Origin: Pirellulales bacterium
GTDB lineage: Bacteria > Planctomycetota > Planctomycetia > Pirellulales > Thermoguttaceae
Direction of reading: 5' to 3'
Length of the DNA stretch: 64,000 bases
Assembly: GCA_016935315.1 (NCBI GenBank)
Contig: JAFGRD010000039.1
Location: 186,001 to 250,000, forward strand
Below are positions 50,487-53,088 of this stretch, in pieces. Position numbers and translations under genes: made by a program. Position 1 is the first letter of the stretch. Each line of letters begins with the position of its first letter. The notes under the pieces are model-generated. The model searched no databases. It was not told the DNA's origin and was given only the letters and a program-made list of their open reading frames with translations.

Positions 50487-50640
50487 CTACCTTAGACTCC
50501 GGAAATTGCCCGCATGGTACATTTCTCGGCAGTGAGCGCCGCCGATGTCCGACAATTAGCCGCGTGCGCGCGGACGTTGTGCACGCCCCTTGGAACGCTT
50601 CGGCCGGGCCGCCCTCGCCTCCGCAGGCCTCGCGGCGAAC

Positions 50641-50669
50641 TTGACGCCCGCAGGCGTGTCTCGTAAAGT
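50641..50669 (+). promoter_or_regulatory. Candidate sigma-70 promoter of the leuA leader
   Basis: TTGACG (50641-50646) and TAAAGT (50664-50669) are separated by 17 nt and match the consensus boxes at 5/6 and 4/6 positions. Transcription would start near 50676, about 40 nt before the leader peptide start codon. Confidence 0.5.
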
Positions 50670-50716
50670 ATAGACGATTCGGCGCAAATGCCGAGATTCT
50701 CTTTGGAGATCATGAC

Positions 50717-50779
50717 GTGAATCGGCTTGGGACCCTATTGCCGCTGTTACTTCCGTTGCTTGCCGGGCGCAGGCCCTAG
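50717..50779 (+). CDS. leuL: Leucine-rich leader peptide of leuA (attenuator)
   Basis: A 20-codon frame beginning with GTG at 50717 and ending TAG at 50777-50779. GGAG at 50705-50708 gives an 8-nt spacing to the start. The peptide is MNRLGTLLPLLLPLLAGRRP, with 8 Leu in 20 residues. Leu codons are CTT, CTA, TTG, CTG, TTA, CTT, TTG and CTT, so several leucyl-tRNAs are sampled, including the UAA isoacceptor encoded just downstream of leuA. This is the classic design of ribosome-mediated leucine attenuation. Stalling when leucyl-tRNA is scarce would let the antiterminator form. The stop codon sits directly at the antiterminator's left arm. Confidence 0.8.
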   Translation: MNRLGTLLPLLLPLLAGRRP

Positions 50780-50823
50780 GGTTCGTCGTAAGCCGCTGTC
50801 AACCGATCCGCCAAACCGAACCC
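50779..50823 (+). promoter_or_regulatory. Antiterminator pairing in the leuA leader
   Basis: GGGTTCG (50779-50785) is exactly complementary to CGAACCC (50817-50823). The right arm overlaps the first bases of the terminator stem at 50822-50823, so the two structures exclude each other. A ribosome at the leader stop codon would mask the left arm. A ribosome stalled on the Leu codons would leave it free. Confidence 0.65.
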
Positions 50824-50851
50824 CAAGGCCGAGACCGCCTTGGGTTTTTTT
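50822..50851 (+). terminator. Rho-independent terminator of the leuA attenuator
   Basis: CCCAAGGC (50822-50829), a 7-nt loop, then GCCTTGGG (50837-50844) form a perfect 8-bp stem followed by seven T. It lies between the leader peptide and leuA, 180 nt before the leuA start. Confidence 0.85.
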
Positions 50852-51031
50852 GTTCCGTCAAGCGAACCATCCCGACGAGGTGTGATGTGAACAGCGACCG
50901 GCGAGAAGGGCCCACGAGGGCATGGTTGGTGTTGCCCGGGCCGACCAGGGGTCGGCTGGCAGGCATCTGAGGCAACGCGAGTCTTCTTCGCACAGACCAT
51001 CTTCACACGCAACGAGAGGATACCGACAAAT

Positions 51032-52606
51032 ATGTCAGATATGCAGGAAAACGCACCCCGCCGCATCGTGATTTTCGACACGACGCTCCGCGACGGCGAG
51101 CAATCGCCCGGGGCAAGTATGAACCTGGCCGAGAAGATGGAGGTGGCCCAGGCACTGGTCGATTTGGGCGTAGACGTCATCGAGGCCGGCTTTCCGATTG
51201 CCTCGCCGGGCGACTTCGAGGCGGTGCGGCAGATAGCCCGCTCGATTCGCGGATCGGTAATCTGCGGCCTGGCCCGCTGCCGCGACGCCGATATCGATCG
51301 CGCCTGGGAAGCCGTCCAGGACGCCCCGCAGTCGCGAATCCACGTGTTTCTGGCCACCAGCGCCATTCATCGCGAGTTCAAGCTCAAGATGGACAAAGAG
51401 GAGATCATCCGCCGGGCCGTGGCGGGGGTGCAGCGCGCGGCCGGCTATTGCCCCGACGTCGAATTCTCGCCGGAAGACGCCGTGCGAACCGAATCCGACT
51501 TCCTTTGCCGGGTGGTCGAGGCGGCGATCGACGCCGGGGCCACCACCGTGAACATCCCCGACACCGTCGGCTACGCCACGCCCGCCCACATGAATCAGGT
51601 CATCCGCACGCTCCGCGAACGGGTCCCCAACATCGACAGGGCCGTGATCAGCGTCCATTGCCACAACGACCTGGGCATGGCCGTGGCCAACAGTCTGACG
51701 GCGGTGGAGGCCGGCGCCGGACAGATCGAGTGCACGATCAATGGGCTCGGCGAACGCGCGGGAAACTGCTCGCTCGAGGAGGTTGTGATGGCCCTGCGGA
51801 CGCGAAACGACTTCTACCACGCCGGCACCCGGGTCGTCACCAACCGGCTGGTTCCCACCAGCCGGCTAGTCGCCAACATCACGGGCATCCACGTGCAGCG
51901 GAACAAAGCCATCGTGGGCCAGAACGCGTTTGCCCACGAAGCGGGTATCCATCAGGACGGCATGCTCAAGGAACGGACCACGTACGAGATTATGCGGCCG
52001 GAAGACGTCGGCTTCGTCAAGACGGATCTGGTGCTGGGCAAACACAGCGGTCGGGCAGCCCTGGCGGATCGGGCCAGAGCGCTGGGCTATCACCTCACGC
52101 CCCAGCAACTCGGCGACGTCTTCCAGGAGTTCAAAACCCTCGCCGACAAGAAGAAGGAGATCTACGACGGCGATCTGGCGGCGCTGGTCGACCAGCAGAT
52201 TCACGCCGTCGCCGAACAGTGGACGCTGCATTCGTATCAGGTCACCTCGGGCACGGGGCGCGTACCGGAGGTCACGCTGGTGCTGCGCCGCGGCGAAGAG
52301 CAGTTCAGCACCAAAACCTCCTGCGGCGATGGCCCCATCGACGCCATCTTTCTGGCCATGGAGCAGCTCACCGGGATTTCGGTGGCCTGCAAAGACTTCC
52401 GCGTCCACAGCGTCACGGTCGGCAAAGACGCCCAGGGCGAAGTGATGGTTCAGGTCGAATTCGAGGGGCATCTGTATCGCGGCCGCGGTGTCTCGACCGA
52501 CAGCATCGAAGCCAGTGCCAAAGCGTTTCTCAATGCGATTAACCGCATCGTGGCCCGAACCAACGGGGGCCCCGCGCCGGCGGCACCCTCCGCAGAGGAC
52601 TCGTGA
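51032..52606 (+). CDS. leuA: 2-isopropylmalate synthase
   Basis: 524 residues. It condenses acetyl-CoA with 2-oxoisovalerate, the committed step of leucine biosynthesis. The catalytic barrel starts IFDTTLRDGEQSPGASMN (metal Asp and the RDGEQ signature) and continues with NIPDTVGYATPAHMN, HCHNDLGMAVANSLTAVEAG (metal His pair) and NGLGERAGNCSLEEV. The subdomain has HEAGIHQDGMLK. The C-terminal LeuA regulatory domain, where leucine inhibits, includes SGTGRVPEVTLVL and GDGPIDAIFLAM. A Leu leader peptide, antiterminator and terminator precede the gene. The last codons (GAGGACTCGTGA) come from a family B repeat. No leuB, leuC or leuD gene follows; a tRNA-Leu does. Confidence 0.97.
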   Translation: MSDMQENAPRRIVIFDTTLRDGEQSPGASMNLAEKMEVAQALVDLGVDVIEAGFPIASPGDFEAVRQIARSIRGSVICGLARCRDADIDRAWEAVQDAPQSRIHVFLATSAIHREFKLKMDKEEIIRRAVAGVQRAAGYCPDVEFSPEDAVRTESDFLCRVVEAAIDAGATTVNIPDTVGYATPAHMNQVIRTLRERVPNIDRAVISVHCHNDLGMAVANSLTAVEAGAGQIECTINGLGERAGNCSLEEVVMALRTRNDFYHAGTRVVTNRLVPTSRLVANITGIHVQRNKAIVGQNAFAHEAGIHQDGMLKERTTYEIMRPEDVGFVKTDLVLGKHSGRAALADRARALGYHLTPQQLGDVFQEFKTLADKKKEIYDGDLAALVDQQIHAVAEQWTLHSYQVTSGTGRVPEVTLVLRRGEEQFSTKTSCGDGPIDAIFLAMEQLTGISVACKDFRVHSVTVGKDAQGEVMVQVEFEGHLYRGRGVSTDSIEASAKAFLNAINRIVARTNGGPAPAAPSAEDS

Positions 52607-52658: not shown

Positions 52659-52743
52659 GGCCGAGTGGCGGAATTGGCAGACGCTAAGGATTTAAAATCC
52701 TTTGGGAGTAATTCCCGTGCGGGTTCGAGTCCCGCCTCGGCCA
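52659..52743 (+). tRNA. tRNA-Leu (anticodon UAA)
   Basis: An 85-nt cloverleaf. The acceptor stem GGCCGAG pairs with CTCGGCC, with discriminator A. The D arm is GCGGAATTGGCAGACGC. The anticodon stem is AAGGA/TCCTT with loop TTTAAAA, giving TAA at 52693-52695. A long class II variable arm (GGGAGTAATTCCC) identifies Leu. The T arm is GCGGGTTCGAGTCCCGC. The 3' CCA is not encoded (CCT follows the discriminator). Confidence 0.97.
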
Positions 52744-53088
52744 CCTGATGTTTTGGCACTATCATGCAGTGTTTTGCACCCTGACGCAAGGAGCCCAATT
52801 ATTCAAGGGATTCCCGCGTCTTCTGCGAGTCATTGCGATGTGTCGCGGCAGCCTGCGTCGAATGGATCATCAGAGCGGAGAACGCCGAAATCAGATAACG
52901 GGGAGGTATCGGCCACCCGAACTCGGCGCCGGAGGCATGTTCCGTTGCCGGAAAAGGGGGCAAGGGGCTTCCCCAGGCTGCGGCAACTGCTCACAATGAA
53001 GGTTCTAGCGCTTCGGCCGGCAGTGCGGTACCCGCCCGCAGCCCGTTGTCTGTCTTGCGGACCCAAGATTGTGTAGAGGCCGCCTTCC
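52744..53088. other. 345-nt stretch without a recognised gene
   Basis: It lies between the tRNA and the cytochrome b gene. Open frames here are short, Arg-rich and lack ribosome sites. No Rieske gene, which would be expected near cytochrome b, is present. The promoter of the respiratory cluster should be here, but no clear boxes were seen. Confidence 0.5.

Follow-up and report, generated by a model that had tools for sequence, protein, structure and literature searches.

In enterobacteria, the leu operon is preceded by an attenuator (leuL) that comprises a leucine-rich leader with rare Leu codons, an intrinsic terminator and an antiterminator that competes for the 5′ arm of the terminator. 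A T-box riboswitch turns a terminator on or off according to whether one given tRNA is charged. For actinobacteria, one report describes a LEU element upstream of leuA as a pseudoknot whose base stem pairs Leu codons with the Shine-Dalgarno box of leuA, and holds classical attenuation to be unlikely there; the same report describes leuS attenuators of Streptomyces, which regulate the synthetase through a classical Leu leader with terminator and antiterminator (PMC1262725). In Staphylococcus aureus, a leucine-rich attenuator peptide in the ilv leader is reported to control branched-chain synthesis (PMC5794164). Leader genes of Planctomycetes are treated by their distance to the gene in a further paper, which also cites a 2010 comparative study of attenuation (PMC4833913).

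We analyzed a 64,000-nt stretch of DNA from a Pirellulales bacterium (contig JAFGRD010000039.1; hereafter, the window), in which the 2-isopropylmalate synthase gene leuA (51032–52606; TIGR00973, NF002086 and NF002087 above cut-off) is preceded by a Leu-rich leader and followed by a tRNA-Leu(UAA) gene, all on the + strand. The assembly that carries the window is 7.1 Mb long and 95.28% complete, and the closest named relative of its LeuA belongs to a Pirellulales MAG (78% identity). The leader resembles leuL in its Leu-rich, rare-codon frame, its terminator and an antiterminator set against the 5′ arm of the terminator, but it has no Rfam match, its antiterminator starts at the leader stop codon and, in many relatives, leuA stands between a second leader ORF upstream and a tRNA-Leu(UAA) gene downstream. 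As with a T-box, the charging of a specific tRNA would switch a terminator, whereas sensing here would proceed through codon translation, with no T-box found by Rfam. The LEU element likewise places a leader ORF with a run of Leu codons before leuA, whereas here the layout is that of a terminator-antiterminator switch, with 252 nt from the end of leader 1 to leuA; Streptomyces leuS shares leader, terminator and antiterminator, but the switch here would serve a gene of biosynthesis and, it appears, one for a tRNA (PMC1262725). The S. aureus ilv leader has a leucine-rich attenuator peptide in common with this locus but belongs to another operon and another phylum (PMC5794164).

At the gathering score, Rfam recognized only the tRNA in the window and in 20 relatives, with no leader family or T-box, and at a permissive threshold it returned two chance-level matches in 50600–51040 (E 5.5 and 9.1). 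Among the literature matches listed, from a search with most subscription journals outside its range, there was no planctomycete leucine attenuator, nor any biosynthetic operon under attenuation that includes a tRNA gene, and the suggestion of the first-pass annotation that a leucine attenuator may be new for this phylum is not contradicted. The attenuator itself is of a known kind; the link to tRNA-Leu(UAA) and the second leader element go beyond it. Judged from sequence comparison, a ribosome-mediated leucine attenuator likely controls a unit formed by leuA and tRNA-Leu(UAA).

The leuA leader and its probable switch

A promoter TTGACG-17-TAAAGT (50641–50669) was read as TTGACG (50641–50646), a 17-nt spacer and TAAAGT (50664–50669). 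A GGAG site (50705–50708) precedes leader ORF 1 (MNRLGTLLPLLLPLLAGRRP; 50717–50779), whose 20 codons, eight of them for Leu, run from a GTG start (50717–50719) to a TAG stop (50777–50779) and include a UUA codon at 50747–50749. The 5′ arm of the antiterminator, GGGTTCG (50779–50785), begins with the G of this stop codon and pairs over 7 bp with CGAACCC (50817–50823), which overlaps by 2 nt an intrinsic terminator (50822–50851) made of an 8-bp stem (CCCAAGGC, 50822–50829; GCCTTGGG, 50837–50844) and seven U (T at 50845–50851). The first-pass annotation had proposed a complete leucine attenuator in front of leuA from these same parts, with the stop codon at the left arm of the antiterminator, and each was found again in the sequence, as was the geometry; its leader peptide stood with regard to length and Leu content, but the start that it read as 'M' is a GTG codon. 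The minimum free energy of the 356-nt leader was no better than that of shuffles (z −0.03), so total fold energy alone would not reveal the attenuator.

Searches for leuA gave matches in 49 of 61 family genomes and 136 of 146 order genomes, besides named records. From these, 177 loci were taken, and removal of two without a start motif and three duplicates left 172 distinct upstream regions of at most 700 nt each. A fixed detector, requiring at least four Leu in eight codons and a stop codon 0–90 nt before a strong terminator, found a Leu-rich ORF with a terminator in 110 of the 172, an undercount in that at least four loci (L109, L128, L150, L164) looked attenuator-like by eye and fell under its threshold. 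Homologous leuA leaders lacking a Leu-rich frame and paired arms had been named beforehand as evidence against the attenuator, and the opposite was found. The stop codon and the terminator stem downstream of it are 25–56 nt apart in 106 of these 110 loci (median 35), and the 5′ arm of the antiterminator most often begins at the last base of the stop codon, as in TAGGGTTCG. The helix has at least six pairs in 62 of these loci. Its best score was 14.93 with a locus's own arms versus 14.04 ± 0.21 with arms of different loci (reached in 0 of 200 permutations), and arm variants such as TAGGGTTTGC/GCAAACCCTA still pair. Rare codons are enriched among leader Leu codons (CUA 20.4%, UUA 8.3%, CUU 17.7%, versus 2.1%, 1.7% and 7.9% in leuA), and the antiterminator arms co-vary.

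Folding models of the window's leader put P(terminator) at 0.217 and P(antiterminator) at 0.987 for a ribosome with UUA in its A site; for a ribosome at the stop codon, the two values were 0.998 and 0.0. When only the 5′ arm of the terminator was treated as made, its occupancy by upstream RNA under a stalled ribosome was 0.758, versus 0.551 when 21 nt from the stop codon on were shuffled, and was higher than in the control in 98 of 110 loci; this control was used as evidence in place of the stalled-versus-stop comparison (0.752 versus 0.204), which is partly true by construction. In an equilibrium model with the full-length terminator, the terminator was favored in every state in most leaders (median P(terminator) 0.974 at mean Leu stall), and mean Leu stall and stop differed by at least 0.3 in only 27 of 110 loci, none of them reversed. 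Equilibrium switching was clear for the leader in the window.

As in trp/leu-type attenuators, what appears to be a short leader carries clustered codons for the amino acid of the pathway (8 of 20 Leu, with such leaders in 110 of 172 related regions), a predicted intrinsic terminator lies between the leader and the first gene, and the antiterminator is modeled to exclude the terminator and to have its arm masked when a ribosome sits at the stop codon. Layout, arm pairing and rare Leu codons fit ribosome-mediated attenuation, and the element is very probably a leucine attenuator. Should charged leucyl-tRNA run short, tRNA-Leu(UAA) in particular, a ribosome would stall at the Leu codons of the leader; GGGUUCG at the stop codon would be left free to pair with CGAACCC, the terminator could not form, and RNA polymerase would continue through leuA and the tRNA gene, giving more leucine supply and more of the limiting tRNA. 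With ample charging, a ribosome at UAG would cover GGGUUCG and transcription would end near 50851.

A further leader element ahead of leuA

ORF 2 with its hairpin (50887–50970) and the tRNA-Leu(UAA) gene behind leuA were absent from the first-pass annotation and are the more novel parts of the locus. Leader ORF 2 (MNSDRREGPTRAWLVLPGPTRGRLAGI; GTG start, TGA stop) is preceded by GAGG (50877–50880), its relatives share the motif R-A-[WR]-L-[VAL]-L-x-x-P, and it overlaps a hairpin, GCCGACC-AGG-GGTCGGC (50940–50956), whose pairing and covariation are seen in relatives. This element 2 (R-A-x-L-x-L-x-x-P), which in the window stands between terminator and leuA, occurs in 49 of the 172 regions, 38 of them with a detected attenuator, and the distance from the terminator to the first conserved leuA motif has a median of 239.5 nt with it and 142 nt without it.

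Our guess, a weak one drawn from sequence, is that element 2 acts as a second leucine-sensing leader once the terminator has been passed; stalling at Leu-x-Leu would hold the hairpin that follows open and aid leuA, through translation coupling or protection from Rho or mRNA decay. This reading would add to attenuation of the leuA–tRNA-Leu(UAA) unit and not replace it, and we regard it as possible but rather doubtful. It is favored by the conservation of the peptide (both Leu in 49 of 49 regions, R and P in 48 of 49 each), and single-base codon differences in ORF 2 have a synonymous share of 0.589 in frame versus 0.306 and 0.228 in the other frames. The second Leu is encoded by TTG, CTA or CTT in 48 of 49 regions and by CTG once, whereas CTC and CTG make up 72% of Leu codons in leuA; the TTG found in 19 of the 20 loci of the window's own family also fits simple inheritance. 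The hairpin, too, speaks for the second leader: 89.7% of cells were paired and the covariation score was reached by 0 of 500 shuffles in 40 of the 49 rows, the nine others (hairpins of greater length or shifted position, near-duplicate sequences and weak hits) having been left out before the count, which favors the 89.7%. Double-change and pair-type measures did not exceed shuffles (108 and 370 of 500), and RNAalifold alone predicted only three of the pairs. Against the second leader stand a variable distance to the leuA start (97–359 nt), sequences with no U-tract and no conserved downstream partner found, and a weak predicted effect on the accessibility of the leuA ribosome site.

A covariance model of element 2 had matches in 43 of the 146 order genomes at E 0.01. 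Setting G130 aside, 29 genomes had a match below 1e-5, and in each of them it lies in front of leuA. As these hits are largely the training sequences, what carries information is that no strong match appeared away from leuA in the 146 genomes, one of which, G130, gave several weak repeat-like hits; this too favors a second leader. The best match outside the family, among 294 genomes of the phylum, was 2.9e-4.

Four other explanations of element 2 were rejected. A dispersed repeat does not agree with a pattern found once in its own genome at up to three mismatches and with no strong model match away from leuA except the weak G130 hits, and an intrinsic terminator does not agree with the missing U-tract in the sequences read. 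An alternative stem between the element-2 Leu codons and the 5′ arm of the hairpin places C opposite A in some rows (by eye). Masking of the leuA ribosome site changed predicted accessibility weakly, from 0.50 in the free to 0.54 in the stalled state (p 0.019).

In L093 and L005, the ORF 2 frame extends until its TGA overlaps the ATG of leuA (ATGA). The stop codon of ORF 2 is placed identically in L149, whereas the ORF 2 of L150 runs in frame into leuA; translational coupling of ORF 2 and leuA is possible in these four. One genome, G064, has three leuA matches (G064:C241:16842-20395 and C252), each with an element-2 match upstream; two of them are divergent neighbors with equal scores.

tRNA-Leu(UAA) and the UUA codon of the leader

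The tRNA-Leu(UAA) gene (52659–52745) starts 52 nt behind leuA. Among 40 tRNA matches in the genome it is the only tRNA-Leu(UAA), with one exact pattern match, a single-copy count that refers to an incomplete assembly, with one tRNA truncated at the edge of a contig and not assigned a type; the other Leu tRNAs (CAA, UAG, CAG, GAG) were found once each. Across the loci compared, tRNA-Leu(UAA) lies behind leuA in 39 of 120 downstream regions of at most 1.5 kb, each time on the leuA strand: 9 of 52 shorter pieces and 30 of 68 longer regions, the latter including seven under 700 nt and L100, a copy of the named L005. The only other tRNA in the 120 regions was one tRNA-Arg. The distance from leuA to the tRNA ranges from 0 to 1229 nt, and in L092 the tRNA overlaps the end of the leuA frame.

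UUA is decoded only by tRNA-Leu(UAA). Its presence in the leader was compared with the place of this tRNA in 87 loci, 23 of the 110 attenuator loci being omitted as their tRNA place was not known; 'downstream' means within 1.3 kb behind leuA (L192, with its tRNA about 1.2 kb behind leuA, included) and 'elsewhere' means placed by genome search. UUA was present in 32 of 34 leaders with the tRNA downstream, as opposed to 10 of 53 with the tRNA elsewhere (Fisher 1.6e-12). In the broader class with no tRNA within about 1.3 kb, 7 of 47 leaders had UUA. All 21 leaders of the nearest class (tRNA 0–417 nt behind leuA) did, and there UUA made up 37 of 151 leader Leu codons versus 7 among 678 Leu codons of the leuA sequence retrieved for the same loci. 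Permutation of labels within families reached the association in 0 of 20,000 trials. With and without the tRNA, UUA occurred in 18/18 versus 3/9 leaders of family f1, 5/5 versus 2/16 of f7, 4/4 versus 0/7 of f16 and 1/1 versus 0/1 of f17, and in 4/4 with the tRNA in f13. Counter-cases are f10, with UUA in 0 of 2 leaders though the tRNA lies behind leuA, and f18 (3/3; L115, L116, L124) and f12 (2/2; L178, L185), in which UUA is kept with the tRNA elsewhere, either as a remnant or through another link. On a LeuA tree limited to 46 of the 87 loci, as the gene sequence retrieved for the remaining ones covered its first part only, seven independent contrasting pairs comprised five concordant, none discordant and two tied (p 0.031). 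Other Leu codons had no such link to the tRNA place, apart from a mild association of CUA (635 of 20,000 permutations).

In the tested loci, 47 of 48 UUA codons stand 5–15 codons before the stop, a position that leaves the antiterminator arm free. That UUA is the generally best-placed stall codon was rejected, as the minimum of P(terminator) fell on UUA in 2 of 32 leaders, with 6.7 expected; in the window it is modeled as a near-best stall position. It is fairly likely, from its distribution, that UUA is kept in these leaders because it reads tRNA-Leu(UAA).

As UUA follows the place of the tRNA, we read the arrangement as a closed loop, in which the attenuator would measure the tRNA from its own transcript. 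The order of the genes, the weakness of promoter-like sites close to leuA and the link of UUA to the place of the tRNA support the proposed loop, in which leuA and the tRNA would be co-transcribed; tRNA-Leu(UAA) probably belongs to the attenuated transcript in this genome. We lean, if only slightly, toward a switch in which the transcript supplies its own tRNA-Leu(UAA) and in which a shortage of this isoacceptor itself, and not of leucine only, would open the operon.

The competing explanation is an ordinary attenuator of leuA only, with a tRNA transcribed from its own promoter and a leader UUA that is merely another rare Leu codon. It draws on the enrichment of CUA, which tRNA-Leu(UAA) does not read and which at 20.4% is at least as prominent in leaders, and on the 10 of 53 leaders that have UUA with the tRNA elsewhere; yet UUA tracks the tRNA position, also within families, and other codons do so weakly or not at all. 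Promoter-like sites bear on both sides. Those of tRNAs close behind leuA are weaker (mean 10.2, n = 22, the window's own family plus one) than those of tRNAs elsewhere (mean 11.5, n = 20; p 5.8e-4), and the best site of the window's tRNA scores 10.0 where those elsewhere range from 9.5 to 14.5. For tRNAs 0.1–1.2 kb behind leuA in other families, however, the sites are of normal strength (mean 12.0, n = 14, no different from elsewhere), and these tRNAs may be transcribed alone. Gaps of only 6–54 nt between leuA and the tRNA in nine loci also speak against separate control, and overall we consider an attenuator of leuA only to be unlikely. In three loci of family f13 (L291, L395, L398), a recurring TTGGC(A/G)-17-TACGAT stands upstream of tRNA-Leu(UAA), 0.7–0.9 kb behind leuA, and is perhaps the tRNA's own promoter.

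If the closed loop is true, it would be, to our knowledge, the first known case of a tRNA gene under codon-specific ribosome-mediated attenuation by its own product; we know of no tRNA gene in the S. aureus ilv attenuator system, and how bacteria set the levels of single tRNA isoacceptors is, so far as we are aware, largely open. By sharing a switch that reads codons, a biosynthetic gene and a tRNA would couple the supply of an amino acid to the capacity for decoding it in a single circuit, and several gains or losses of the tRNA behind leuA, accompanied by UUA, would have taken place inside a single bacterial order. Genomes with and without the tRNA behind leuA form a natural comparative experiment.

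Distribution of the probable attenuator in relatives

A chance or coding artefact, conceivable in that a GC-rich genome has many Leu-rich frames and genes often have terminators nearby, and in keeping with a leader fold no more stable than shuffles, has a negligible probability and is refuted by the detector's 1 hit in 172 reverse complements and 0 in 860 dinucleotide shuffles (five rounds of the 172 regions) versus 110 in the regions themselves, and by geometry and codon bias that are conserved across relatives. Outside the order, the same detector was positive in 8 of the 9 leuA regions analyzed from the class, in 3 of 22 from the phylum's other classes and in 3 of 66 from other phyla. Probable leucine attenuators before leuA occur in several orders of one planctomycete class. 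Within the window's family, a second leuA lineage (L132–L147) has leuA genes that are 61–68% identical; 5 of its 16 loci were detector-positive, and the leaders are odder.

Promoter-like sites TTGAC(C/T)-N17-TA(G/A)A(C/G)T recur upstream of many relatives' leaders, in a scan of 75 nt that does not reach as far as the window's own site. Of the leaders whose promoter match was good, 65 in number, 29 have 30–47 nt between the −10 box and the leader start, a gap that is 47 nt in the window. In 21 of the 65 the box ends 6–11 nt before the start codon (L007, L011, L092, L101, L103, L197, L224 and others), and the leader mRNA may be leaderless at these loci.
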